A stretch of DNA of 64,000 nucleotides from Lagopus muta. Lineage: Eukaryota; Chordata; Aves; Galliformes; Phasianidae. A program made the position numbers and the translations under genes. Positions 1 through 43,369 of the stretch are shown here, one piece after another. The notes under the pieces are model-generated. The model saw only the letters and a list, made by a program, of their open reading frames with translations. It ran no database searches and had not been told where the DNA came from. The stretch is from contig NC_064437.1 of NCBI RefSeq assembly GCF_023343835.1, positions 13,357,001 to 13,421,000 on the forward strand, given 5' to 3'. Every line of letters starts with the position of its first letter. Within the stretch, counting starts at the first letter, position 1.

Positions 1-3000
1 GTTCATTTCTGTAGAAGCCTTCAAATCCGGACTGTGTTGTCTTCATAAGTTTCAGATCTTTAATTCCAGCAAAAACAACCAGAGGACCTGTGAGCCAGAA
101 ATATGCGATAGCATGAGCCCTTTTCAGAGGCAGACAGAAAGGATCTCTGCTTGTGCACTTGTAGTAGCAGTTCTAGAGCCGTCAGGTAGTGACTACTCCA
201 AGACTTGCACATTTCTGCTGCAAGGCTAACTACTTCTAAAAATTATTTTCTGTGTGCTGATGTTAGCAAGAAGGCAAGAAACAAGATAGAAGCCACTGAA
301 ATCAGAGCTCAGTCTAGAAAGAAGAGAATCTTCTTGAGTGACCTGCAGTGGAGAATCGAGGACACCTCTTCTCTCACTTCCTTGGAGCTGGGATGCATAT
401 CAGGTAGGCTGTTACTGATGTCAACTTGGGGATCGATCACTAATTGCTCAAAAGGGAAATGAAATGGGCTACTGGTGCTGTGGTGCACAGGAGAGGTAAA
501 GGGAGGCCTTTTCTAACATGGAGAAGTGTTGAAAGGTAGGTTATACAAAGACTGGGAGCCTCAGCCAGAAATTCACTTTACATATCCATCCTGTTGTGTT
601 TTGCATCCCTAAGAACGCGAGGGCAAGGAGCCAATGCAAATGCTTGCAGTTCAGCTAATTAGCAGGAACTGGCATTAATACAGATACCACCCACAGGTTC
701 AAACTGACAGTGTTTTCCTTGTAGCCACTATTTATAAAATGAGCTGTTGCAGATCAATGCTGCATGGGCGGATTATAATTTTCTCAAGACCTAACAGTTG
801 TGTCCTGAACATTTTATTCTGTCATTTTGGATGGCAGCTGAAAAAATTCATGTGGTCAGTCATTTAGATTACACCAAACTGATAATTGAAAATTTCACTG
901 AGCAGAGCTGCCAAAAATGCAAATTTGGGAAAGAGGAACTTTACACCATGCAGACTTACCCAGAGCCCATATAGATGGTCACTGCTGAAGCCTATGCTGC
1001 TGCTTTGTGCTCTTCATGCACACACTAGCTAGTTTAAAATTAATCCTTCAGTAAGCCCGGCACATAGTAATCCTGACTTTGACTTGGAGGACTGACACAC
1101 TTTTATTAAATTGCCTTTGAAGAAAGGAGCATATAAACAGGAGGGGGAACAGCTGTTTATGAGGGTGGATAGTGATAGGACAAGGGGGAATGGTTTTAAA
1201 CTGAGACAGGGGAGGATTAGGTTAGATATAAGGAAGAAGTTTTTCACTCAGAGGGTGGCGCACTGGAACAGGTTGCCCAAGGAGGTTGTGGATGCCCCGT
1301 CCCTGGAGGCATTCAAAGCCAAGCTGGATGTGGCTCTGGGCAGCCTGGTCTGGTAGCTCCCAAGCAGGGGGGTTGAAACTAGGTGATTTTTGAGGTTCTT
1401 TTCAACCCAGGCCATTCTATGATTCAGTGAAAGTTAAACTGAAAGTAATTTTGCTGTGATGGATATTTCCAAATGACATGATTGTTTAGAGTGTTTTTTT
1501 GTTTGTTTGTTTAAATACCTTGTTACTGGGTATGATTAAAACTGTATTTCATCCATTTATTTTCTTGTTTACATTCATCATTGCTTTTTGAATGGTGTTA
1601 TCTATTACTTTGACTACATTCCCTCATTATTCACCAAAGCTTTGTAGAATCTAAAGATTTATCTTATCTGCCCAATATTGTTGAACAGAATATACTGGAT
1701 TTGCTTCAGATCTTGATGACTTCATTGCTCAGGTATAAGATAATTGGGTACAAATGTAATGCAAATACTACCAGTGTACCTTGAAGTATCTCATATTCAA
1801 ATGCATACTGTTGTTTGAAAAGAATGCTTGCAACAAATGCTTTAAAGAAATGCTGGCTGGGTAGATGTCTAGGTAGAACTATAACACCTAGACAAAGTTT
1901 TTAAAGAGCTGAATGTCCCTGTGCTTTCAGAAGCTTTTGTGCTTGTACTGTTTTTTCAGTTATCTGATGGCAACTCCACTGAGAATTGGAATCGATGATC
2001 TTTAGAGGTCCCTTCTAACCCTGCAATGCTGTGATTAAGTTACTTCTGATGTTTTCAGGTTTTAAAAAATTCTAAGCCTCCAATCAATTGAAATAGTGCA
2101 GGGGAGGAAAAAAAAAAGAAGAAGAAGAAGAAGAAAAAGAAAAGGTTGTAATTCTATTAAGCCTCACAAGTTTTCTTTTAATGATGAGTAAAGTGTTAAA
2201 ACATAGGGTTAACAGAGAAGTAAATTTATGTGTCTGGCTGCTAGGTGCATGGGAGGATGCTAAAGATAGAAAAGGCTCACTTATAAGGAGAATAAAAGGG
2301 AGTTGAAAATCTTCTGATTATTATTCACCCAAGCAGGGAATCCTGAAGAAACAACTGAAGGTCTGCATGAAGAAAAGACTAAGAAGGAAAGGCAGTTTTT
2401 TCAGAAAGCCTTTGTAAAGGCTGAAATTGCAAAATTGCATGCAGAATTATCATGATGATGAAATATTTAGATTCAGTTCATATACTGGAAGCAGAAGCTT
2501 CTCAAGAAAGCATAATATATTTTTTTCTTCATTCAGGTTTCTTTCTTAATTTTTTTCAAGAAGATAAAATTAATTATATCAAGGCTGAGAAAAATGTAGT
2601 AGTTGTCAACATTACTGTGAACATTACAAAACATTATGCCAAAAGGCACTGGAAACCTGCATGGGCTTTCTCTTTTTTTTTTCAGCAGGAATGTGGGGCC
2701 AATGCTCAGCTGTTCTTTAGCTGTCTCTCAGAGATCAAGGACTACATAATTAGACCATAAAATTATTCCTTGGTTTAGACCTCTGGAGAGGTTTTGTTCC
2801 TCTGTAAGCCCTGCCATGGCTTTTGCTGTCCCTAAAGCAACCTTCTGTCATCAGCAGAAATATTTACAGAGAAGCAGGGGAAGCTGCAAAGTCTTTTCTC
2901 ACCATTCCGGCACTGCTCAGCTTCGCAAAAGCGAATCCCATCAGGAACAAGTATGAATGAGTGGATGTGGGGAACGCCGTTCTAAAATCCAGAGTAGACA

Positions 3001-3889
3001 TGTGAGTTAAAATGCAGAAAGCAGAAAGCATCACCTTCACAGGAAAGCAGGGTAAGAGAGTGGCAAATGGCTCCAGCACGAGCCAAGGGAATGCATTAGT
3101 ATTTCAGATACCTGGTATTGACGTTGCCATGGCACTTCCTGAACGTAGGTTTTGACGTACGCCACTTGGCAAAATGTTGTCATGAAGTGTTTGCAGATAT
3201 CTATAGCAAATTGTTCTATACTTGAGATCTAAGGCAGCAAAGAATATTATTAGAATGAAGCAATTACCTCACATACAAGAGCAGATTGTTCTAATTGTAA
3301 ATATTTAGGGAGCATCAATGTTGTTAAAAATACAGATTTCTTTCAATTCTGGTTCTGCGAGCTTACTCACTTGATCAGCTTGCAGCAAATGCTGCAAATA
3401 AACATCCAGATCCAGCTAAAAATCTCCCATTCTGCAGCTTGGGAGCTGGAGTCCCTGGATGTAATGCTGAATGTGGATTTCATTAAAAGAGAGAGAACTT
3501 GAGCTGCAGATTTTCTTTACGGTATGAGGAACTGAGGGAGGTAAGAGCACAGTTAACAGAATTAAGAAGAGACTAAGCTACTTAGAGCCCTTCTGTTTAA
3601 AATGCTGCATAACAAACACTTCCCAGTGAAGAGACAAGAAAAGCAAGGATAGCTAAAAAGTAAAAGATACCCCATTTTTTTTGGCCAACACCAGGACAAT
3701 ATTCTTAATGGTGTCTGTAGGTATCACTAAAGAGTTGTTTCCATCCAAATACTCATGAGCAGAAGTCAGCCGGAGATGTGTGCACACTTCCACTTCTTTA
3801 ACAAAGTGCTTCTTCCCTTCTCTATGAAGGCGAAGGAATTTGATTGTGTTCTTGCCATATTCACAGTTGAGCACTTCTATATCCTTAAT
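1..3889 (-). CDS. UOX: Urate oxidase (uricase) gene, partial: coding exons 2-5
   Basis: Urate oxidase converts uric acid to 5-hydroxyisourate, classically in peroxisomes. Four exons are read on the minus strand: 3889-3671 (73 codons, begins [14 protein letters not shown] and contains IPTDTIKN), 3228-3112 (39 codons, [12 protein letters not shown] to VPWQR), 2981-2903 ([19 protein letters not shown]) and 87-1 ([19 protein letters not shown], cut by the window edge). Every junction seen has AG/GT sites and compatible phase, with no stop or frameshift. Lys in YGK and Thr in IPTDTIKN, the family's Lys-Thr catalytic pair, are present, as is Phe in QSGFEGF. The NH of mammalian FNHV is replaced by CQ (TFCQV). 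Six cysteines occur in about 167 residues, more than I recall in mammalian forms. The first coding exon was not found and the last exons lie outside. Birds excrete urate and are said to lack liver uricase, so activity is doubtful, but this part is open. Confidence 0.93.
1108..1430 (+). mobile_element. CR1 LINE, 3'-terminal fragment
   Basis: This 5'-truncated CR1 lies in the UOX intron between exons 4 and 5, antisense to UOX. It encodes the degenerate end of CR1 ORF2 ([16 protein letters not shown], then [19 protein letters not shown]) and ends in the family 3' tail with a CCATTCTATGATT-like motif. Confidence 0.9.
1988..2040 (+). mobile_element. CR1 LINE, short 3' tail remnant
   Basis: A roughly 50-bp piece matching the CR1 3' end (GATCTTTAGAGGTCCCTTCT, then a degraded TGTGATTAAG end). 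Nothing of the ORF remains. Confidence 0.65.
2107..2145 (+). repeat. GAA/A-rich microsatellite
   Basis: A purine-only run with GAA triplets, inside a UOX intron. Confidence 0.9.
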
Positions 3890-5148
3890 CTGAAGGGAAA
3901 AAAACACATGCTATAGTTGTAACTCAGAACTCAGCAGAGGCATTAGTTACACTTAGGCAGTGAAACATAAGCAACGTTTATTGTTTTATTTCTGTGATTA
4001 CCTGTGATAATGAAAATATTTCCAAGTTCTGATAGAAGGATAAATGCTTTGAGATGTCTTTATGAGTAGCAGCTATGACAGACTTTAAAACGTTTCTTGG
4101 AGGGCAGATCTTTTAGCAAATCGTACGCGGAGCTGCAGGGGCACTGAAGCAAAGCTTCAGTGCAGGGCAGGCAGGTGGCTTTGTGAGCAGGCACAACTCC
4201 CAAACAAAGAATGAAAGCAGCTGTCATGTTCTTGATGACTTTTGTTTTCTGTTGCCCCATCTGTGCATGTTGTGGTTCCCGAGAGAAAGAAGGAAAGAAG
4301 GGCCGGGCTGGGCTGGTTGAAAGGGTTTTGTTGCAACCGGATTCCTGGTTGCTCATGAAAGGGATCAGAAGCAAGTCTGAGCAGCAAAATTCAGCTCTCA
4401 ATTCACACTTCTACAATCCTGGCTTTCTGGGATCATTGTTTTTGTTTGCGCTAAGCCCTAATTGCTTTCATCCTGCTTTGGTCAGACGCAGTCCAACTTG
4501 CACAGCTTCTGCCGTGCTGGAGACACTGCAATGGGAGGGAAGGAAAAATACTGTAGGGTCATGGGGTTTTCTTTTCTGCTAAAACATCCAGTGCTGACTG
4601 CAATAGACTTTCCCTGAGGCTGACTCGTCCCGTACCTGATATTAACTTATTCCAGTGCAAGTGTAATGGGAAAGGAGACGAGAATATTTTCAAGACTAGG
4701 TTCAATTCAGACTTTGTTCCTAAGATAAATGCTAGTGCATTTAAAAGGGAATTTAAAAACCTTACTAACCAACTGGAAGTAAATTGCTATGGCTCAGAGG
4801 CTTTTGTTGCTGTCAGTCCCTGCAAATGGACGTTCAGTGCCCATGGGCAAATGGAGGAACAGAGCTGAACTGGGGGCTTTGCAACCGGGAATGATGCAAA
4901 GGCTGAGCTCACTGCAGAGGCTGCATGGAAAAGCAGAGAGGAGAAAGTGGGTTTGGTTTGCTTGTCTGAAAACTGAGCTTTTTCGGGTAGTTGTACAAGA
5001 TTGACGAGTTTCACGTGTCCGTTCTTCTGCCCGGATTGACGCGCGCGAGCTTCTAGCCGATGCTGGGGGCGTTCACAGGCAGCCTGAGGAAACGCAGGCG
5101 ACTTCTGTTTTCGGAGCCTGCCCTGCGCTCACTGTGCCACGCGCCGAG
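3890..5148. other. Intergenic or 5' region between UOX exon 2 and DNASE2B
   Basis: UOX (minus) and DNASE2B (plus) point away from each other here, so the UOX first exon and both promoters could lie in this stretch. I found no minus-strand start exon with a convincing donor. A cysteine-rich minus-strand ORF at 4401-4060 is noted in the findings. From about 5000 the sequence becomes CpG-richer toward DNASE2B exon 1. Confidence 0.5.
5010..5019 (+). promoter_or_regulatory. E-box CACGTG upstream of DNASE2B
   Basis: TTCACGTGTC lies about 130 bp before the DNASE2B start codon. It matches 8 of 10 positions of GTCACGTGAC, the CLEAR element bound by TFEB/MITF-family factors at many lysosomal genes. 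The site is seen; the role is inferred from family knowledge. Confidence 0.4.
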
Positions 5149-8100
5149 ATGACTGCGAGCTGTGCGTGGCGCGGCCCTACTCTGCTGCTGCTGCTCTTCT
5201 CCCCAGCCCTGTCGGCAGTGGAGATTTCCTGCAGGAACGAAGACGGGGAGGCAGTGGACTGGTAAGTAAGCACCGCACACGGGAGGGAAACTGGATGAGT
5301 AAATAATGCCTAAAATTACACTGTGCAAAGTAGGCGGGTCACTGGGAAGTAATGCATAGCAAGCATTGGTTTAATCCTTCTTGCCTCTGAGTAGCTGAAT
5401 TTTACATTAGGAAAACCTGGGCTAGGTTACTGAAAGGTGATTTCATTCCATGGAACAAACCACGCTGCTCTGTTATGACTAACTGCAAAATAATGACAGG
5501 TTTACGCAGCGTTCATTTCTGATGATCAAAGCCAGCCTCACCTGTGTTCCAGTGCCAGCACCACAACTGCCTGCAGCAGCACTGCTGGGAAAATGCCCGC
5601 ACCCTGCCCTGATCTCACTGATGGCCCCTGGCCACGCAAGGGAGCTGAAGCCCAGTTGCCTCCCGAGTGGGCTGGGAGACGCACAAGGAGCGCAGGCAGC
5701 CGTGGCTGTGTGGGAAAGCGGTGTCTGGCAGCGCCCAGCCAGCACTTAGGTGCCAAGTGATTAACTGGGTTAATGCACCTTGAAGATGAAAGACACGAAG
5801 TGTAATCACAAAACAGCCAACCCATGTTTAGAAAGTAAAGCAAGGGCTTTTAAAAAAGGAAAGAAAAGAAAAAAAGCACTGAAGCCTCTGAAGGACAAAT
5901 ACTAGGCACTTTAAAATAAGAATGATAGAGCATTAATTAGTTCAGATATGAGTGATAGAGGAGGTGGTGCTGCTCTGTACCACCACCCTCACACATGGCT
6001 CACCAGGGGCTCCCAAGCACAGGCAGTGTGCTGCGCACATTGAGCTCCTGAGGGACTGGGCCAGCCCCATCTTGCTTATCAATGCACCTCCAGATAAAAG
6101 TCATTTTTTGGGAATCAGAATCTGAATTGGTGCAGGCAGCCAAGAAATTGGTGATAAGAAATATTTCATTTCTCTGTAAAACAATGATTTCTTTCAGAAT
6201 AAGTTGCAGACCCTGGTCCCTTCTGACAGGAGTAGTAGGGAGAAGAGGGGAGATCTTCCAAACATATCGTGACCTGATAAAAGAGAAGCTTGCCTGTCAG
6301 CATGGTCGTGCTTGTTTATTGACAAACATCCTCTGCTTCTTCCTGATTCTGAAGTCAGGTGCTACGAAGCAGAACTGAAACTGCTGAGAAAAGCTTCCTC
6401 TTAAGCAAAGGATGTTGACACCCTTTAAAATAAACACAGCTTTTCTTTTTTTTATTTTCACTTGCAAGAGCTGTATGAGTCTCTGCTGTTCAGTGGCTTC
6501 CTGCTGCAATTCTCCATAATTGCTTATTACCAGTACTCACACACCTTTTCTTTGCTGCTAGACTGAAGGAATCACTTCCCTTATCACTCTGATTCCTCCC
6601 TGGAAATGCCAAAAGCTGAGTGGGAGGGGGCTTTGGGCAGCTCACATTACTGGGAGGCGTCCTACTGGGGGACAGCTGGATCTGTAAGGTCCCTTCCAAC
6701 CCAGACTGTGCCATGAATCTGGTCCTCCCACCTGTGTCCCTGGCTTGCCTGCACTTCCTTCCATGAGTGGTAGTGCTGGCAATGGCCACAGGTGCTGTTT
6801 CACCTGGGAGCTCACCTCACCAGCCCCTGCACACAGCATATGGCCCCAGGCCCACTGTCCTTAGGAGAGCAGAAGTCTCTGTTTTATTGGCCCAAGTTCA
6901 CTGCACTCTTTGAGAATCATCTTGTGCACACAGAGCCAGGGATTGAAGCCAGGGCTGTGCATTGGTTTTTATAGGATGTGGAAAAAAGAGATTAAAAGGT
7001 GGTTAAAATTTGCTTCTAGTAATTCAGTGCTCACTCAGAAGCAAGCACTGTGGCTGTGTTAATCAGATTCTTTGCTGCTAATAACTTTGCTTTTTCCTGA
7101 TTGTCAGGAAAGTAATTTCAGTCCACTCCCACAACACTTCAATACTTTAAGCGCTTGAGAAACTTCCTGTGCAGTTAGCAGTGAGGACTTTCATCCAGCT
7201 TTAATTGCTGAGGCACTCATCTGTCAGGTCAAGTGCTCAGCTCACCTGGGAGTGGGCATTCCTGTAAGCACGTCAGCTGCAGGGCTGTAAACATGGGGAA
7301 AGCACCGACCTTCCAGAACATTTTGGAGGAGCTTGGAAAGGCTTCAGGCAGCAGTTCTTGGTTCATCTCCTACCTGTATAACTACTACTATTTGTCTTCT
7401 TTCCAAAACCTCATTGCAAGTGAAGGGATGGCTGCAGCTTCTCAAGTAGGAAACGCTCTCACCAGACCTCCCCTGCAAATTCCTTCTTCACCTTCTCCTG
7501 GAACATCCCTCAGACAGTGGGGATGCAGGTGGATTACAAGAATCACTAGCATGGTGTGTGCTTCTCCTCAGTCTGTATGTGTGCCCTTCCATGGATTAAG
7601 TGTCCCTCTAGCAAAATGCTGTTCTGGTGCTTTTACCTGCTTTCTGAGCTGCCTTTTTTTTTTTTTTTTTTAAACCAACTGTAATTTATCTGGGCAGGAC
7701 CTACTCCTCCTGACATACTGACAGTGTTAAGTGCAGTCAGACTGCATTATTGCTAAGCATTATGCACAGGACCGAAAATAATGCCGCTCAGTTCTTACTA
7801 TTGACATAAATAACAAATTACTTAAGCAGAGCACTCAAAGCAAGTGGCTCAATTAATTAGACTGCAATTAATCCCATGGACTTTTGTACTAGGAAAACCT
7901 GTTTACTTCATCAGATACACTAGTAGAAACGGACCCATTTGCCAACAATGTCAAGTACTCTGCAATTTTGAAGAGATTTGTGTTTCTTACTGATTGTTTG
8001 TAAATATTCCACTTGCAACAGCTCAGCAGAATGTGTGTCTGCTATTGAAGGATTATAATTAATCATGGTTTCGTGCTTATTTATGTGTGTATGAACAAGT

Positions 8101-11100
8101 GGAATTATATAATTTTATGATTTAATATACAGTGTAATTATGGCTCATATAAATACATAATTCTATTTGTATAGAATAAGAAATTGTTGGTAAGAGTTAT
8201 CCATATTGACCAAGAGAATGGCAGACTGAGTTTGGGACCTGAAGTTCAGGCTCAGCCTTTTCCTGTTTACGAAAGCCAGGAGCAAGCAGCATGGATTTGG
8301 TGGCTGCATGGGACACCAGAGGATGTCCCCACAGTGTGCATCCCTGCATAGTTTTCCCTGCTTCATCTCCCTGATGCTGAGCTCACAGTTCAGTCACTGA
8401 AATGCTAGGCACAACTCATTCAGCCTCATCCTTTGTGCCGAGGGTGAAAACCCCACAAAGATGCAGGACAGAGTTGTGTTCAGATGCTCACATTCACATT
8501 TTAGCCACAGGAGGGATGTGGGTGCAGTGAGGGAAAACTAAGGCTAGTTATTCTAGGGTACTGACAACAGTGTGGCCATAGCAAGGGTAGTTTGGTGCTG
8601 GCTAAGCCTCTTCAGAGAAGCAGACTGAAGGTGCCCGCAGGGACACGGTGCTGCTGGCTCCAGAGTGTTAGCACTGGTGTCCCTGTGCAGGCATCTCTGT
8701 GGTCACCTTGGTCCTTACATGCTCATGGGGGAGAAGAGATGGACCTATGCATTGAGGTAGAATGGTTTGTGAGAAAAACAAAATTTGTTTGTCACTGCTG
8801 CAGGTTTGCTCTGTACAAGCTGCCAAAGCACACCAAAGGAGATGGCACAGGGCTGGGCCTGGAGTACCTGTACATGGACAGCCTAGCGCAGCAGTGGCAG
8901 CCTGGCAGGTACCTTGTCAACATGACACAGAGTGCTCTGGGACAGACACTGGGGCAGCTCTACAAAGCATACGAGTCCAAGGTAAGTAAGGTTTAATTGC
9001 TGTGTTGCTATCATGTCTACCTGACAGTACATGCAAATTAAATGAAACCAGCCAAAATAAGCATGTAGGGCTATAGCCAGACCTGACTGACTAGATCTGC
9101 TAATATGCATCAAGGTGAGCATACTGGTGGCTTGGCAGATCATTTGCAGTTCTGGCTACAATTAGAATCATAGAATCGTAGAATTGTTTGAGTTGGAAGG
9201 GACCCCTAAATATCAGCTACCCCAACTCCCCTGCTTTGAACAGAGACCCCTACAGCTTGATCAAGCGCTCAGAGCCCTGTCCAGACTGACATTGCAAGTA
9301 TCCATGAACAGGGCATCCACTGCCTATCTGGGCAACCTGCCCCAATGCCTCCACCCTAATTGTAAAGAGCTTTTAAATATTTTCCCTATATTCAAAATTA
9401 GAATTAGAAGTTGCCCTAGAAATTTCTAGTTGAGTCTTTCACACACTTGAAGTATTGTCCATCAAATAGATGAACATTGGTGCACGGTCCCCATGGCTTT
9501 GTTTCTGCAATTTCTGTTGAGTGGTGGCTGAAGCACAGAGCCAGCTGTCAGCTCAGCCCAGCCTGGTGCCGATCACCCACCTTAGCCCTCCCAGCTGCAT
9601 GTGTTTTGCGTTTCACCTTAGATCACATTTGGGTTTTGCTGTTGCCTTCTGACTGCTTCACCAGTAATGATTTCTTTTTCTAGTCAGAAACTTCCTTTAT
9701 GCTAGTGTGATCATAAAATACCACAAGATCTGCCCATGGTTATTTTTTAGCATCTACACATTGTTCCCATTCTTAAGAGTCTGGGTGTGTCTTTGCATTT
9801 CTGCTGTGGGTTGGTGGTAGGGTGTCATTACATTTATATGTTTAAAAAAAAATTGGTCAAATATTGCCAAACCACTCGACTCTCCTATTCTGTATCATGC
9901 TGGAACTGTAATACAAACAATCTTTACAAGCTGAGCTATGCTGATGCCATCTTCCTACACTGCTAGCATTTGCAAACTGCACAGCAGGTGGGGAAACATT
10001 TCTCAACACCTTTGAAGCTCTTTATTCGGGGCAAATAAGGTGCAGCTGTATGTAAATTTTTTTGTAAAAAATATTCATGGTTTGTCCTTCATAAGAACAC
10101 TTGAAATGGCTTCTTTTCCTGAGCAGACATTTTCACAGAACCTTGTTGCTAAGTGAGAAAGAGATACACAGAAAAGCAGAGAATGGGAAGTTCTGGGAAG
10201 TGGTTGCCCAACAGAACCCATGGAAATTGTCCTATTGAGCATATTGAGCCTCAAGGACTGTTGCAATGATTGAGAGAACTTCTGCTTGATATTAACCAGG
10301 ATCGTAATGCTGAGTCTTCAAGTTTATTTTAGTGTAAGCTCTGTGTAGATGGTGGCAGCTGACATGGGAAAGAGTCTCGTGATGTATGCAGAGATCTGCT
10401 GAATTCTTTCAGAAAAAGTCATTTGCTTAAAGGCCTTCCTCTTACTGAATGTCGTGTTTCAGAAATGTGTGTTTCCCTGCAGAGGAACAACACTGTGTAT
10501 GCAATCTATAACGATGAGGTCCCTCATTCAGGCTCCATCAGCTCTAAAAAAGGACACACCAAAGGTACAGGGAGAATCCCCAGCTTTCCTCTTTTTTAAA
10601 GTTGTGGAATTTGTTTGTTTGTCAATCTGCATATCTAAAAATCCTGCCTAAAACAAAACTGGAAAGCAATTTGCACGATGAGTGGTTTGCGGCGCGGTGA
10701 CAGATGCAGTTGCTTCTATTCTGGTTCTGCTGTGCCTGTGCTGTATTGAAGAACTCTTAGGGATTAGGGACCCTTTGTTTTCAAGAGTGGAAACTCTTGT
10801 ATCTCCTTCTGCAAGTACAGACACATCGTCCTGAGCTGGCTATGTGACAGCAGCACCCAGTGCAAGGGGAAAGGCACCCTGTGAGACAGTTAGCCTCTGA
10901 ACTCCCAGCTTTCCATCTCTGTGGAAGGATTATAGAGGCACTTAAGTAAGCAGTGACAGTATAGCCACAGAGCTGCTGTGCAATCCTGGTGGTCCCTTGA
11001 GGAAGCAGATGGGATTTGCCCAGCCTGGCGCTGGAGAGCTTTGGCAGGGCTGTATCTGGCTGTAGATCTGGGGGCTGCTCCCTGGGCCCATGCCTACCTG

Positions 11101-14100
11101 CAGTGCAGGCATCCTGCACTGAGCACAGTGATGAAATGAAGGGAAGGGGAGGGGGGCATGAGGAGGGAATCACAGACAATAAACCATCAGATTTTTCAGA
11201 GACGGTATTTGAGCAGAGAATGAAAAGGTTTTGCAAAGATTTTCTTTGAAAGCACAGAGGTGACAGTTCATGTTAGGCTACACAGCCGAGAATTAATGCA
11301 ATTTTAGCACAATATCAGTGTTTTCTATAGCCCATTAATATACTGTAGAGCCAGTTTCGCTGTAGACATTAACACACTAAAGCATGAGGTCTGCAGCAGC
11401 AAATCCAAAGCAGGACACCACTGCGATGTCTCAGGGCTTACGTCATTCATTTGATATAACTTTCCTCTGATAGGGTTTCTGCTCTTGGACAAATCACAAG
11501 GCTTCTGGGTGATCCACAGCGTGCCCTTGTTCCCCCCCTTTCCCGAAGATGGCTATGGTTACCCAGCCAGTGGGGAGTTCTACGGACAGACAGCCATGTG
11601 CATAACCTTCACATATGAGCAGTTCATAGAAATAGGTAAGGATTCTCCCTAAGAATGCCTTTGCACCACTGCAACTCTCTGACTCCTTTCCTTTTTGCTG
11701 TGCCTCCAAAATTGCTTGCTTTTGTCCTCCATTATCAAATTTGGTAACCAAGTGGGGCCTGGAAACTGCATGCTTGGCTTTCAGTTCTATTTATCGAGTT
11801 CTTCCTGTGGGAATGTGGGAAATTCACTCTTCCACTCTTTCTCCATCTCCCATGGGATCTACTGAGATAATAATAGTCACAAGCGCATATTGAGGGCAAA
11901 GTCAGCCCATACATACCAAATGCTTTAGAAATATAAAGGAGGATGGGTCATCATTTTTAACAGAAGTAGTAGCTTATTCAACTGCTGTAGTCTGCAGTTC
12001 TACAAATGCAAAGCAATCACTGCTTAGCAGGAATGGTGGCCTTGACGTCAGAAATACTAACTGTGGAAAAAATATTCTCCAGAATTTCTATACGTACTTT
12101 TTGCCACATAAAAAGTGAACCCTAAAAATAAGAAAAATAAAATCTGTATCTGTAAGATTTAGAAGTACCTGACACTGGAGGTCCTGAATAAGGACTATGA
12201 AAAGGCATGGTAAGATATAACTTATATGTTCCTTAACACCTTTTACATTTTTTTTTGCTCTTTGCTCAGTTACAAGTGCCAGATTTTATCAAAGAAATGC
12301 ATAAGATTATAAATAAACAAGCTGGGCACACTATGGAGCTGTTAAAACCAAGATCCTGCTCCTGGAGGTGCATCTTTGCTTGTGCTTAGGGAAAGGGAAG
12401 AAGAAAATGAGAAGCACAGTAAAGTTTTCGTGCTCTATCCTCCCAGCTTCTAATCTGTGGTTTAGGGTTTTCCTGAGCTGGAAAGACTGGAAAGTTCCTG
12501 ATGGAGTCATCTTCATGAACTCATCACTCGTGGAGCTATTTGTATCCTTCCTCTTTATGAAATCCACAGCGAGGCCTGAGCACTGTACAAAGAATTTTCT
12601 TCTGCAGATCCAGTCCAGATTCTGAAAGTCAAACTCTATTCTCCCTAAAATCCAGCCAGGTGCTTGGTCAGCTTTTCGCTTTGGCTTTGGCTTTGGCTTG
12701 GCAAGTGTAACTGAGTGGAAACTCCTCCTGTAAATACAGACTTGAATTCACACGTGCCACTTCAGCAGTGTGACCACTCAGAGGCTTGAAGGTGATCATG
12801 GAGGGATGTGGTACGGCCCTTCTGCTGAGTGCAGGGAGGTGTACATGGTAAAAATGGAGCTTACTCTCCCAGCCAGGCTATGTGCTACAGGGCTAGTCAG
12901 AACTCAAAGCAATTAAACACATTTTTGGTTGCTAAAACAAGCTACTTCGACACTGAACTCCTCTGGGAGATAAATTGTGAAGATTAGAAAGGATTTGTGC
13001 TTCTCTTCCCAGGCTGAACTTTGCTGTCTTGATTGCTCCACTTTAACCTATTTTCATTTTGCTTATTTTCATTTCTTTGTGGATGTTTTATGTTGTTTGG
13101 GGGCTTTTTTTTCTGTGGTTTTTTGTTTCCACTTTAACCTACTTTCATTTTGCTTATTTTCATTTCTTTGTGGATGTTTTATGTTGTTTGGGGGCTTTTT
13201 TTTCTGTGGTTTTTTGTTTGTTTACTTGCTTTTTTCTAGACCAACAGATGCTGAGCTCTAATCCAGAAATCTACAGCTGCTCCCTCCCTGATACCTTCCA
13301 AGCCGATCTCCCAAACCTTCAAAAGCTTTGTGCAGGCTCCAAGCTGCCCTCAGGCCCCCTGCGCCGCCTCTCCAAGCTGCAGTCGGCACGTGGAGAAGCC
13401 TTTCTCCACTTTGCAAAGTCTAGTTCTTTTGTGGATGGTAAGTGAAAGTGCTGTTATCTATCATGTGCTCAAGCAAGCAGTGGGCAGTCAGTATATCCTT
13501 TGACAGTATTTTCTTTGAGGGGAAGAAAAGAATTTCAGCTTCAGAAATGAATTAGCAGAGCAGGGAATGGTCTTCTGTCATTCTGTCAGCCCCACAAAGT
13601 GAAAAGCTATCTCGTCTCTCAAATGTTTTACAATGCACATTAGTGAGGTTGTCAGAAATTTTCTATCCTGATATTCAACTGTAGCAGCAAAGAACAAAAA
13701 TTAGGTTTGAATAATCTGCTTTTTTTTGTTATGAAGAACTGAGGTTTTTTGTTATTTTTTTTCCTTTATTTCCTATTGATTATTTCTAACAAGTTTTCCA
13801 GAGAAAGAAGGGAAAACAAGAATGAATTCGGGAAATAAAATCAGGGCAGGATGGGGGTAAAATCTCTTCTGGTTCACTTCAGGCATTGGAGAGAAGTTAG
13901 CCCAGTTTAAGTGATCCTTTTTGATTCCTTCTTAAATGAAGGAAAATGATGGGCTGACTCCCATCCTCTGCTTTCCCACAGATATCTACGTGGCCTGGGT
14001 GGCTCAGGAACTGAAGACTGATTTGTTGGCTGAATCCTGGCAGCACTCTGGCCAAAAGCTTCCCTCAAACTGCTCTCTCCAGTACTACGTCTACAACGTA

Positions 14101-14337
14101 AATCTCATAGGGACGCCACTGAATTCCACCTTCCATTCGATCCAGGATCACTCCAAATGGTCTGTTTCAATGAAGGATGAAGTTCAGTGGACCTGCATTG
14201 GAGACCTAAACCGTGCTGCTGAGCAAGCTTGGAGGAGTGGTGGGTTCATCTGTACACAGAACAAACACATCTACAATGCTTTTAGACATTTGGTGATCCA
14301 CTACGAAAGTTGCAATGATGCTTCCACGTGGATATAA
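5149..14337 (+). CDS. DNASE2B: Deoxyribonuclease II beta, complete, six exons
   Basis: An acid endonuclease that cuts double-stranded DNA in lysosomes without metal; in mammals DNASE2B degrades DNA in lens fibre cells. Exons: 5149-5261, 8804-8981, 10483-10564, 11474-11635, 13240-13437, 13982-14337. Phases close to 1089 bp, 362 aa, the usual family length. Residues 1 to about 23 form a signal peptide with a leucine run. The mature protein begins near EISCRNEDGEAVDWFALYK. The two catalytic histidine contexts are present: WVIHSVP (His139) and QDHSKW (His301). Possible N-glycosylation sites include NMT, NCS and NST. The start is the first ATG before the signal peptide, followed by a strong donor (GTAAGT). 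Choice of DNASE2B over DNASE2 rests on synteny between UOX and RPF1. The exon 5 acceptor lies just after a tandem duplication. Confidence 0.96.
5262..8803 (+). other. DNASE2B intron 1
   Basis: A 3.5-kb intron with GT-AG ends. It holds a probable CR1 3' tail remnant near 6640-6715 and a T run at 7658-7672. ORFs here show no family resemblance and look like chance. Confidence 0.8.
6640..6715 (+). mobile_element. Probable CR1 3' tail remnant
   Basis: GTAAGGTCCCTTCCAACCCA followed by GACTGTGCC resembles the CR1 3' end; the rest is too diverged to place firmly. Confidence 0.5.
9163..9432 (-). mobile_element. CR1 LINE 3' fragment, antisense to DNASE2B
   Basis: The left end carries the inverted CR1 3' tail (AGAATCATAGAATCGTAGAA), followed by the reverse complement of the GGTCCCTTCCAAC region and the terminal ORF2 region. 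It lies in DNASE2B intron 2. Confidence 0.9.
13038..13219 (+). repeat. 91-bp tandem duplication, two copies
   Basis: Copy 1 begins at 13038 and copy 2 at 13129, both with CCACTTTAACCTA-type starts, differing by about one base (CCTATTTTC versus CCTACTTTC). The unit is T-rich and pyrimidine-rich. The second copy ends 20 bp before DNASE2B exon 5, so the duplication repeats the polypyrimidine and branch-point zone of that acceptor. Confidence 0.95.
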
Positions 14338-19000: not shown

Positions 19001-22000
19001 CAACTGTTACATTTTTATTCGAATAAATCCCCTTGATTTTATTTTTTTCAGTTGAGTTCAAGTATCATTTTTACATGAGGTAATTGGTGGCCATTCTGCA
19101 TCATCTGCAAATCAGGCAAAAGCAAGGAACATCTTTCCCCTCCTTTCACCATTTTGCAGCCTAAGAGCTGCAAGCTAAAAATTAAATATTCAAAACTTTA
19201 CCAGAGCAGGACAGAGTGTTCAGTGTGACCTGCTGGAGTGCTCGTGGTTGCTGCAAGCAGTTCACTGTAGTACACTTGTCCTAGCATTGCATAATTTATT
19301 AATCATAGAAATTGTGCATGCAAATCAGCCACACTGTTGTGCTTCATCATATGCTAACTAGTATATTTGTTTTTACGTGCATTAAAGCCCTCAGATAATA
19401 AAGTCTCATTATAGCAGTGCACCTTTTCTCTGTTGCCTTCTGAAACCTGTCAATTGTTTGCTAAAAGCCACGTCGTTGAGCATGCTGGGGTTTTGCCATT
19501 GTTCCTATACTTCTGACTCCCCAAAGTGTGGCAGTATTTAGCTCCAGGGCTTTTTCTGTGTCTCGATTTTTACAGGTTTCCTTTTTAGGCTAAGGTTCTG
19601 TCAGCCAGAAATCAAGATTTCTGTAGTGCAATTTTAAAACTGTATTCTTGCACCCGTGTGTTTATGCTCGACAGCACTGCCCACCCATTCACGCACAGGA
19701 TTAAGAACACCAACTCAGTGCATGTTTCAGAAACTGTTTGCTTCCTTCCCCTAGCAGCTGCTCCATTGCTTATACTGATCTTGTAATCCTTCCTGGGCAT
19801 TGCACAAATGAAATCTGCGTCTTTTCTTCTCTTGCTTTCTATCTACTCTAATTAATTTTTTGCATGAAAGTAAGATTTTCAAGGGGAGAACAAGAGACCT
19901 AACTATTTTGCATGAGATATTTTGTGAGGAAAAAGCATAGAAGAAATGTTGTGCAACAAAGACAGACTATTGCTGTAGTTTTGTTCCCTACTGCCCAGGA
20001 ACCTGCCCTCCTCTTTTCTGCCAAATAACATGGAGAACCAGAGAAATCAGAATGAGAGAACTCAGAGGAAAACTCAGAAGAGCGAAGAGGACAACAGAAG
20101 GTGAGCCAAGAGAGGAGCAGAAGGAACATTAGGGTGGCAGACATCAGTGGAGGCCAGAGACCTTGATTTCAATCACAGCAAGCCATTAAGAGTTAATCAT
20201 GCAGAAATATAGTCAACTATCTGTTTCACTTACTGTGATAGCTGCTGAGTATTTATCTGTTTAACAGGTATAACCTCCACAGGCTGAGCCACAGAGAGAA
20301 AAAAAATGAGAAGCACACACTGAAGTGACTTAGCCAAGTATTAAAAACCAAACAAATCCTATCACCTGGAGAGGAAGCAGCTCCCTGTTTGTTACCAAAC
20401 TTCCAAGAGGTGGGGTGAGGCAAAATCAAAAGCATTACATATATAAAAGTGGGAGGGAGCAATTTACAAGCCAACCTAAATAGTTTGAACAATGTATTTG
20501 AATAACATGCTACTTTTTTCTTTCTTTTTTAAAAAAGGAAGCTACAATTAAGATTTAAAAACCAATAAAAACGCAGTGAAGATGGAGGTGCAGAACATTT
20601 ACAAGATTAACTGCAGACCGTTTCATTATGGAGTGTGACACTACAACAATTCATTCTCATGGAATTCAGATAACTGCAGGCAAAAAAGGTAAATACAAAT
20701 ACAAAAGAGCATAAACTGTGGTAAGCAAACTGATGCCTTTAACACTTTGCTCTTGGCATTGTTATTACAGAATTTGTAATAAATTTTGGCCTTTTATTCT
20801 CACAGAAAAATTAAAGCTCTTCAGGAATTTCCCCAGTTTTGTACATTCTTTGGTTCTATCTCTTCCTACATCCTGATGCAACTTCATTCTCTAGCACTAA
20901 CCAAGCCACCAGTACTTGGCCCTGCACAAGTCAAAGCCAGCAGGCATTACTTACTGTCACTTGGCTCATTGTGGCCCACTGCTTGGTAGCCTCCCAGTCT
21001 TGGATTCCACAGAGGAATAATGGTAGTGCAGAAGCTGAAGCTCTTTAAAAAGTGTCCTCGTAATGTCAGAGGAGGAGCTAGGCGTAAGGGGTTGGCTTCA
21101 TAAATGCAAATATTTCATAATTTATTTAGTAATGTGGCTTTTTTTTTTCCCCCTAGGCAAAAGCTTTAATAAAGGAATAGTTCTACTGCAACAAAGGAAA
21201 TGAGCAAGAAGAGAGATGAGGACACATCCTAAGTCCACTAATGGCGGTGGGAATTTGCCTTCATCTTCAGTGGGAACATATTTTCAAAGACATGGGAATC
21301 ATCCATACAAACGGGAGGATAAAATCTGAACCTTCTGTGGTCTATGACACAAACCAGAAGATGGCCCCAGCACAGTGGAAACGTGCCCAGCAGGAGTTTC
21401 ACAGCCAGGCTTGACCACAGTCCTATGTGTGGTGCCGGCTGCTGGGATGGACGTCATCACGGCCGCAGGCACAGGCAGTGTCTGTGGTAGAGCCCTCCCT
21501 GAGGCCGGGCCAGGCAGGAACCAGGCAGAGATGCATCCCTCTGGTGAACACTGACCCTCTTGCTGATTATGGGTTTACCTTCAATGCCCTACATTTGGGA
21601 AGAGGAGCAGCGTGGACAGCAGGAATCTTCCCCAGGGAGATTCAAAATCTTCTTCAAGGGCCAAAAACTCTTCCTGGGTACATGCTGCCTGCTGAATGGC
21701 GCAAAAAGCCAAAGCAGGAAAGTCCAGATGAAGGAACCTCATGATCTCAAGCACCTTTTCTTTTGGTACTGGCACTACACAGCAAAGTAGACATTAAAAT
21801 AACAGAGTTGCCACTCTTCTGCTAGCAGAAGCATTCATCTCCCTCTCATCCCTTTGATCTACTCCTTCTTCCACTCCCAGGATTGCACTACGTCAACTCT
21901 CTGTGTGATAGTGTGCACACCAGGACCTTGTTGTACTCTTGAAGAGTGAGTTCATTTGCCCCATGAACACATGGCCTCTATAGTTCTGTTTGAGCTCTTT

Positions 22001-30247: not shown

Positions 30248-31062
30248 AATCATAGAATCATAGAATCACTAAGGTTGGAAAAGACCTTAAAGATCACCCA
30301 GTCCAACCGTTCACCTATTCCCAATAGCTCCTACTAAACCATGTCCCTCAACACAACATCCAGTCTTTCCTTGAACACCCCCAGGCTCGGTGATTCCACC
30401 ACCTCCCTGGGCAGTCCATTCCAGTGCCTGACCACCCTTTCTGAAAAGTAATACTTCCTCATGTCCAGCCTGAATCTCCCCTGCCGTAGCTTGAAACCAT
30501 TCCCCCTGGTCCTATCACTGATGACACGAGAGAAGAGGCCGACCCCCAGCTCACTACAACCTCCCTTCGGAAAGTTATAGAGAGCAATAAGGTCTCCCCT
30601 GAGCCTCCTCTTCTCCAGGCTGAACATTCCCAGCTCCTTCAGCCTCTCCTCATATGGCCTGTGTTCCGTCTGGAACCCTCACCAGCTTTGTTGCCCTCCT
30701 TTGAACACGTTCCAGGGCCTCAATATCTTTCTTGCAGTGAGGGGCCCAAAACTGGACACAGTACTCGAGGTGCGGCCTCACCAGTGCTGAATATAGGGGA
30801 ACAATCACCTCTCTGCTCCTGCTTGCAACACTGTTTCTGATGCAAGCCAGGATGCCATTGGCCTTCTTGGCCACCTGGGCACACTGTCGGCTCATGTTCA
30901 GCCAAGCATCAATCAATACCCCCAGGTCCATTTCCTCTACGCAGTCCTCCAGCCACACCGCCCCAAGCCTGTAGCGTCGCCTGGGGTTGTTGTGGCCGAA
31001 GTGCAGGACCTGGCATTTGGCCTTGTTGAAACTCATCCCATTGGCTCCAGCCCAGCTCAAGT
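30248..31062 (-). mobile_element. CR1 LINE, 5'-truncated, about 0.8 kb
   Basis: The 3' tail is at the left (ATCATAGAATCATAGAATCA). Moving right on the minus strand, the end of the ORF2 reverse transcriptase region is readable as [18 protein letters not shown], then [20 protein letters not shown], then [20 protein letters not shown]. These pieces lie in two frames, so the ORF is broken by a frameshift near 30630-30650. It is the longest contiguous CR1 piece in the intergenic region and is non-autonomous. Confidence 0.95.
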
Positions 31063-33892
31063 GGATCATAAGGTGGGTGTGCAGTTGGATGGGCTGTTGG
31101 GTTTGATGTGTGGTGATCAGCAGCACAAACAGAACTTTCTGTTTTTAAGGGTGCTCATCACAGACCCATAAAAAGGCCCAAATAGTTCATCTCCTCATCA
31201 ATATCTGAACCAGTGCACACTCAGCAAGTTCTTATTATTATACCTATTTTGAGGAGGGGTGTGTGTGTCAATAGGCTGGCAGATAAAGCTGCTGTTTAGA
31301 GGAGTCTTTGCTTTTTTACTGTTGTTTTCTTTCTTATTTGAAAGATTTTTTAACATAAAAACCATAAAAAGCAAGAAGACCAATGAAATTCTAAAAAGCT
31401 AGGGCATTACAGAATGAAAATTGACCAAGAAGATTTCATTTGGTCTTCTTAAGCATCTATACTATAACAAAAACTTTAATGTTAGGGACTGGCACTTAGT
31501 CTGCATTCCTCATGCAGGCTTGAGTCTTCTAGGATCTGATAGCTGGAATGATTCTGAGCGTAGTGAAGTGTTCCTTGAACCTTACAATAGCTGTGGCTTT
31601 AATGTATGATACTAAATATTCTCAAAATATCCAGCTTTGGGTGCTTCACTCTGGGCTTTCTAAATGCATAGATACGTAGATACATTTTCCTTTGGCAGAC
31701 CTGTTTCATTTTCCCACCTGTATGATAGAGCTAATACCTTCTTCCCAATATGCAAGTATCAAATACCACAAAGAAAAAAATGTCTTGGAAAAGCACATTA
31801 AAATAATAATTGATTTCCATATTGAGTTATGGAATTAGTACAGGCATTCAGAGCACTTAAAAAGATCTAGTGTTCAGCCTGAAATGTTAGATAATACCGA
31901 GCCTCACTGAGCGTGATCCCCATTTATCTATTAGAGAGATTGCCCTAGGTGATTGAAAATAGTGATTAAACTCTGGAAACAAGATCCAGTAAGGAATGCA
32001 AGCCTGTAAGCCTGTAAGTCCTAAAGAGATGATCCAGAAAACTACCCACGCAGTTCCTGCATATGTACGTTGTAATTTTACTTTGCTCCCCTATGTAATG
32101 TTTCCATTTGGTTCTGGGTATGCCCAAGTCTGGGAGCAGTCTGGAAGTAGCTATGTGGCTAAAAATTTATTTCATGTGATTTATTTATTTCAAGAGATTT
32201 TCTGCAGCAGAGATCCTTGACGCTATGGTGCTATGTAACAAATATCACAAGTCTAAGCTCTCTAGAACTAAACACAACACAGGCTTTCTCTCAAAAAGTG
32301 ATGATATCACTCCTAATCTTTCATATCTCAGCACAGCAGCAATAGATCAAATAAGAAGAATTAAGAAAGTTCTCAGTTTTGAAAAACCTAGGGGTTTGTG
32401 GCTAGATTGTTCCATTGAAAAGAAAGATGTGAATCTCTGTCTGCAGAGGCTGGAAAGTCCTGTCTCTTGTGTCATATGTGAATTCATTTGGAAATACCAA
32501 TGAAAGAAAGCTACTGTCATGTAGCAGGAAGAAAGCCTGTAGGTTATATCTCTCTTCACACAGAGACAACTGTTTTGTTTAGAACACTGCATTTTCTAAG
32601 GCATTTTTTTCAGTAAAGTGAATCTTGAAGAAAGGTAATACATCCTGTCTATGTTCAGCTAATGAAATTAGGAATAAATTAAAAGAAAAAAAAAAGAGAG
32701 AGAGAGAGGGGGAAAAAATAGCAAGATACAAATAAAAATGATGCTTCCACTACTGCAACTCAATCAGTGGTAATTTACGTAAAGGTTTGCTCAAAAAAAT
32801 TAAAAAAAAAAAATTAAAAAAAAAAAAAAGAATATTCTGGTCAAACTTCTATGAAGAAATTAACAGCATGCATGTGTTCATTACTTCGGCTTTCTCTTGA
32901 AATTCTAATTGTACCCTGTGATCTTACTTTACCAGGACCACAGTATGTTTCCGGTGTCTTTCTGCTGCCCCTCCCTTGCCATAGGAAGTTCCTGTATTAT
33001 TGTGTATCATTATTTTGTTCCTGTGAGTCCTTGGAAGCCTATGAATAATATTAAGAAGCTGTCTTCCCTGTGCTAGGAAAGAGAGTGTGTTTTTGCCCAC
33101 GTGTAAGCAGCCACTGAGCTTCATAGAGTCATGACATACAGGTAATGATTCCAGTTGAATCTGAAACTACAAATAGCTCAGAATTCCCTGCAAAACTCTA
33201 CTAACAGCAGTGATTAAAAATCTCTGTTAATGTTTTTTTTAGAGCCACACTTGCAGTCTCTAATATTTGAATCAGCTGATGAGATAAAATTACAGACAAT
33301 CCTTAGTATATTCCCAACTAAATCCTCCAAACCTTAATTACCATGGAAACTACTTATCCTTAAGGCACTACAGATAGCTGATTTTTTTTTTTTTTTTTAC
33401 AAAAATGGCAGTGAGGCCATAAAAATTGGGTCTGTGTGTAATGAGACCTTTGATCTTTCATCTACTCCTGTGTTAATTAGAAATAACCTCAATGAAGCAA
33501 GCTGAGTTACACAGTATAATTAGTTTACACAAGAGAAGCAGATTTGATGTGTTGTCCAGTTCAGTTTTTTCCAGGTCTTTTTCCATTAACTTCATGCAAT
33601 TGTGTTAATACATTTCTTTTTCACTTCTCTATGAAAATAAATTGAAAATGCAAGATATTATTTGTATATAAAAGTAGTAGACATACCCATGTTTTGAGAC
33701 AATTCTAGTAATGGAACTAATCAGTGCCACTGAGGAGCAGTACTTAAACTGCGTTTACGTTACAGAGATCTGCATTTCCAACTTTATGTGTATTTCATCT
33801 CTGACTGCTTGCAGGGAGTCTCCTGTTTCATTTTAACATAAATTTTAACAGCTTTTAATTGAGCAAAAGTAATTGGCAGTCAAGTTACTATC
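31063..33892. other. Intergenic region between CR1 copies
   Basis: AT-rich DNA without a recognisable gene. It contains a GA-rich microsatellite near 32685-32715 and A-rich runs at 32800-32830; a T run follows at 33383-33400. Confidence 0.7.
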
Positions 33893-34274: not shown

Positions 34275-34640
34275 CTTGCTGAGCACCTCTCCTACAGAGA
34301 AAGGCTGAGGAAGCCGGGCTTGTTCAGTCTGAAGAAGGCTTTGGGGAAAGCAATCGTTGCAATCTTCCAGTACTTAAAGGGAGCTCATTAGCAGGATTGA
34401 GACCGACCTTTTACCCAGCCTAGTAGTGATCGGACAAGCGGGACGGCTATAACTAAAAGAGTGGAAATTTAGGTTAGGTATTAGGAAGAAATTCTTTACT
34501 CAGAGGGTGTTGAGGAAATGGTACAGCTGCCCAGAGAAGCTGTGGGTGCCCCATCTCTGGATGTGCTCGGAGCCAGGCTGACAGGGTGCTGGGCAGCCCG
34601 ATCAGGTGGCTGCCAGCCCTGCCAATCGCAGGCGGTGAGA
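34275..34640 (+). mobile_element. CR1 LINE fragment abutting the RPF1 promoter
   Basis: CR1 sequence from GAGAAAGGCTGAGGAAGC through CTTCCAGTACTTAAAGGGAG and GGAAGAAATTCTTTACTCAG to a degraded GCCAGCCCTGCCAATCGCAG. The 3' tail is missing and the sequence changes into the GC-rich RPF1 5' region about 190 bp before the start codon. Confidence 0.9.
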
Positions 34641-34689
34641 ACTTCACCCACCCTACGACTGCCCCCAGCCCCACCCGTTCACACTCAAC

Positions 34690-35250
34690 CTAGTGCCCCG
34701 AACGTCACGCTCAGTGCGCATGCGCACAGGAAGTTCCCGCCTTCCTTCCGGCGGCGCATGCGCCGAGCGCGCTGCCCGGCACAGGGCCGGGGCCGAGAGA
34801 GGGCCGAGAGTGGGCCGAGGCGCAGCGCGGCATGGCGGGAGGCGGCGCGGGGACAGGCCCGGGCTCGGGCCCGGCGGGGCAGGATGTGGAGCCAGCGGCC
34901 CCGGAGCGAGTCCTCTTCCCGCCGACCTTCAGCGTGTCCGAGATCAAGAACAAGCAGCGGCGGCACTTCATGTTCCTTCGCTGGAAACAGCAGCAGAGGA
35001 AGGTGGGTGCAGGCCGGCGTGGCGCCGTGAGCGGGGGGCACCGGGCTGACGGCTGACGGCTCTCCCTCTCCTTTCAGGAGAAGCTGGCGCTCAAGAAGAA
35101 GCGGAGGAAGGAGCGAGAAGCCCTCGGGGACAAGGTGAGCGCCTGTGGGGCGCGGCCTCGGCGGAGCCCTGCGTGGGTCGTGGGTGGCGGTGCGAGCAGG
35201 GCCCTGTCAGCGCCCGACCGCGGGGTCGCTGCGGGCATCGCCGCGGGCGT
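34690..35250 (+). promoter_or_regulatory. CpG island, RPF1 promoter and first exons
   Basis: Dense CpG and GC content covers the 5'UTR, exons 1 and 2 and intron 1 of RPF1, the usual form of a housekeeping promoter. No TATA box is apparent. Confidence 0.8.

Positions 35251-42353: not shown

Positions 42354-43369
<1,016 letters not shown>

Follow-up and report, generated by a model that had tools for sequence, protein, structure and literature searches.

The gene that opens the window (the whole stretch of 64,000 nucleotides analysed here) is very probably the 5' half of the bird orthologue of CRUOX, a cysteine-rich urate oxidase (UOX) kept after urate degradation had ceased in the liver. This assignment follows from a match to the uricase family PF01014, identity to the PDB entry 8ofk at 169 of 172 residues, a displaced first coding exon, four derived cysteines and a DNASE2B gene that is divergent from UOX. 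Two features that mark CRUOX, derived cysteines and a first coding exon displaced past the 3' end of DNASE2B, were both found in the window, and others (Tyr230, C287, C289 and a C-terminal extension that replaces the peroxisome signal) belong to the second half of the gene, beyond the window edge; one point against the assignment is that cysteine 149 of the chicken protein is a phenylalanine here. The chicken gene was named CRUOX by Mori et al. (2023; PMC10517255), who reported its cysteine enrichment and displaced first exon; the term 'reptilian' in that paper takes in birds, and it gives RNA data for two turtles, anole and canary as well as for chicken, the species whose protein was studied.

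UOX exons 2–5 were located by tblastn of the window with a mouse uricase sequence as the query, and are given together with exon 1 and DNASE2B in Table 1.

Table 1. Coding exons of UOX and the DNASE2B gene in the window
Feature	Position	Strand	Details and basis
UOX (CRUOX) coding exon 1, MSQVT	20955..20969	-	beyond the DNASE2B 3' end; donor GTAAGT; its 15 bases equal the start of the chicken cloning primer
UOX exon 2, with C14, Y16, K18, C41, P62, T63 and D64	3671..3889	-	tblastn; splice boundaries
UOX exon 3, with C90 and C98 (FCQV)	3112..3228	-	tblastn; boundaries; alignment to 8ofk
UOX exon 4, with C136 and C141	2903..2981	-	tblastn; boundaries; alignment to 8ofk
UOX exon 5, truncated by the window edge; F165 kept, chicken C149 replaced by Phe	1..87	-	tblastn; PDB match to 8ofk (E 5.6e-13)
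DNASE2B, divergent from UOX, inside the first coding UOX intron	5149..14337	+	Pfam DNase_II PF03265; exons partly mapped

When joined, the five UOX exons have consistent phases and contain no stop over 172 codons (exon 1 included). The acceptors of exons 2–5 end in TTCAG, CTTAG, TTTAG and CACAG, with the AG preceded by a pyrimidine-rich stretch or similar, and the visible donors (exons 2–4) are GTATCT, GTATCT and GTGAGA. An earlier note on this DNA had described four consecutive open UOX exons with splice sites; these were confirmed on the minus strand with in-frame joins and no stop, so that the exon set was right for those four but overlooked the short first coding exon. Openness of the exons is, however, weaker evidence than the match to the chicken protein: in a control with 5000 random sets of four minus-strand pieces of equal lengths, drawn from position 4000 to the end, 52 sets had an open reading in some frame.

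Over residues 15–138 the joined sequence of 172 residues matches the Pfam family Uricase (PF01014; E 3.8e-21; bit score 76.4, cut-off 25). Their best match in the PDB is 8ofk (E 9.9e-115), from which they differ by F59L, I107V and C149F; the next best, 4mb8, is identical at 87 of 164 aligned residues. Entry 8ofk is titled simply 'Uricase' and is taken here to be the chicken protein because its MSQVT start fits the cloning primer, and its residue numbers fit those used, in PMC10517255. When the exons were searched separately, exon 2 was identical to 8ofk at 70 of 71 residues over the stretch searched; exon 4 by itself (30 amino acids) had no match in the PDB, the same stretch being aligned within the joined protein. 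The window protein is very near chicken uricase and not identical to it at three sites, changes which are in themselves no proof of selection. These differences speak against the reference chicken sequence, though less against a variant chicken one; the bird is probably another galliform. Near-identity to a protein that is functional in chicken (PMC10517255), the intact splice sites and the retention of every listed pocket residue within range make it very improbable that the gene is a uricase pseudogene, young or in decay, with a first half that has stayed open by chance, a reading that has in its favour the open frames among the random sets and a view limited to the first half of the gene.

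The first coding exon reads ATGAGCCAAGTGACA from 20969 to 20955 on the minus strand, is followed directly by GTAAGT and keeps the phase into exon 2. The chicken cloning primer given in PMC10517255 begins with the same 15 bases, and its next seven are those at the start of exon 2. Some 75–80 bases 5' of the ATG there is, on reading by eye, a TATA-like stretch, TTTTTAAAG. Exon 1 sits 6.6 kb past the DNASE2B stop, which therefore places DNASE2B within the first coding intron of UOX. Displacement of the first UOX exon beyond DNASE2B is the reptile layout according to PMC10517255. DNASE2B itself was recognised by DNase_II (PF03265) matches at 8805–8978 (E 8e-12) and 13972–14313 (E 2.1e-41), the latter in an open reading frame with its stop at 14337; its start was set by eye, and the 38-amino-acid reading from there matched no Pfam family. 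A search for a remnant of the ancestral first UOX exon at 3890–5149 on the minus strand gave nothing clear, the score of 26 being reached in 18 of 300 shuffles.

Several other features of the window were recorded. Shortly 5' of the last DNASE2B match, at 13037–13219, a 91-base unit is present in two tandem copies that are 98 percent matching, and appears to reflect either a recent duplication event or an error of assembly. GNG5 was found on the minus strand at 42360–43369 with a human query sequence, in two pieces (42482–42360, 95 percent identity over 41 residues; 43369–43256, 66 percent over 38 residues). An open frame of 158 amino acids at 30650–31126 on the minus strand matched no Pfam family at E 0.001; we take it to resemble the tail end of the reverse transcriptase in CR1-type retroelements, and the UOX intron that separates exons 4 and 5 presumably also holds a CR1-like repeat at about 1120–1430. 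At 34518–35049 long open frames overlap on both strands, a pattern suggestive of another gene with a GC-rich promoter or first exon there. An Rfam scan of the window gave no matches at the gathering score, and a scan of viral contigs for bird uricase sequence that might have strayed into them gave 15 pattern matches, none of them a relative. Two in situ probe primers listed in PMC10517255 had no match in the window at up to three mismatches.

The catalytic pair, Lys18 and Thr63, was seen intact in the alignment, as the earlier note had read it, and the other pocket residues within range (Tyr16, Pro62, Asp64 and Phe165) are also kept, the roles of all these residues being those assigned in PMC10517255. 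Mammalian FNHV is FCQV both in the window protein and in chicken. The catalytic histidine of the uricase family presumably sits further downstream, beyond the window, where the active-site residues R182, S229, residue 230 and Q231 also fall. That the NH of FNHV is lost, which had also been remarked, is correct as a reading of the segment, but the sections of PMC10517255 consulted do not list FNHV with the residues of the active site. Retention of the Lys–Thr pair and of the pocket residues within range would also suit an ordinary uricase that still breaks down urate in this bird's liver; such an enzyme is scarcely credible here, given that the near-identical chicken protein oxidises urate slowly, with a turnover more than 100-fold below that of zebrafish uricase, and that its transcript is absent from liver (PMC10517255), and given also that the displaced first exon is present with no clear remnant of the ancestral one at 3890–5149. 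The pseudogene and the ordinary liver enzyme were both rejected.

The cysteines that the earlier note had placed at new sites (LNC, VCT, TFC and EQC) correspond to C14, C41, C98 and C141 in chicken numbering; they are present both here and in chicken, and absent from 4mb8, whose only cysteines in the compared region are C90 and C136. Six of the seven chicken cysteines in this region are kept in the window protein, the exception being residue 149. The window protein departs from 4mb8 at 77 of 164 positions, with four cysteine gains and no losses, for which the binomial P is 0.029, 0.069 or 0.127 at an assumed cysteine rate of 1.5, 2 or 2.5 percent per change; judged from this fragment by itself, the gain is only suggestive. 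The strong case for cysteine enrichment is that made in PMC10517255 from the full-length chicken protein, with its 18 cysteines, and a survey of 3,393 orthologue groups. In chicken, C14 is about 8.5 Å from C287, the cysteine closest to the peroxo hole; C98 makes inter-tetramer disulfides in crystals; and peroxide generally converts C41 and C141 to the sulfinic acid form (PMC10517255).

The retention of C14, C41, C98 and C141 alongside the replacement of C149 by phenylalanine might mean that the cysteine set is still turning over in this bird lineage, although we consider this unlikely: the reading stays weak because it concerns a single site compared between two birds, and the change at 149 may have gone in either direction. 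Were it so, selection may hold particular cysteines, those near the active site and those crosslinking at the surface, and not total cysteine content, and this would help to single out the cysteines on which the new function depends.

For the CRUOX orthologue as a whole, the following account is proposed. Birds and other reptiles retained a cysteine-rich UOX after halting hepatic urate degradation; its coding start here is at the displaced exon beyond DNASE2B, so that the first coding intron spans all of that gene on the opposite strand. By extension from the chicken work (PMC10517255), the protein would be a tetramer produced by skin and feather epithelium as it differentiates, and probably located outside peroxisomes. 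Chicken CRUOX is described as being without a peroxisome signal, and expression is reported in skin and feather and not in liver for chicken and canary; in chicken, several embryonic tissues were also positive by in situ hybridisation before the feather stage. The enzyme would oxidise urate slowly and may return the product to urate, chicken CRUOX having been reported to regenerate urate from 5-hydroxyisourate, an ability that the authors ascribe to thiols (PMC10517255). Peroxide would drive disulfide links (C98) and aggregation, as can be expected from the chicken protein, which aggregates with urate or peroxide unless reduced, through cysteine linkage (PMC10517255). The role suggested by the same authors is in the skin barrier, as maturation of the cornified layer; this is their proposal. 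We infer that function carries over from chicken to this bird on the basis of the 169 shared residues. The view of the earlier note, that retention with altered chemistry fits a new role in skin better than a young pseudogene, gains support from the chicken work to the same extent.

The published case is of an enzyme retained for more than 300 million years though the liver reaction was abandoned, which became a skin protein with a gain in cysteines; the cysteine/phenylalanine difference at residue 149 is a small natural clue to which cysteines count. An earlier paper on bird uricase, by Keebaugh and Thomas (2010), is cited in PMC10517255 and PMC5138847. The gene in the window is a correct rediscovery of the one published in 2023 by Mori et al. 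(PMC10517255), the only paper that the literature searches returned. The suggestion that it would be a new, bird counterpart of a reptilian co-option in skin does not hold, as the published protein is that of chicken. The window adds only a further bird with this layout, probably a second galliform, and the phenylalanine in place of cysteine at residue 149.

By comparison with chicken CRUOX, also GgUox (LOC101747367; PDB 8ofk, 8oh8, 8oih and 8oiw; Mori et al., 2023, PMC10517255), the window protein has 169 of 172 residues in common, including the four derived cysteines, and likewise starts with MSQVT, encoded by a first exon that is displaced to beyond DNASE2B; it differs at residues 59, 107 and 149 over the compared residues 1–172. 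With the reconstructed mammalian uricase 4mb8 it has in common the family PF01014 and C90 and C136, whereas C14, C41, C98 and C141 occur in the window protein only. In the ordinary uricase of non-reptilian vertebrates, by contrast, the first exon adjoins DNASE2B and a promoter is common to both genes (PMC10517255).
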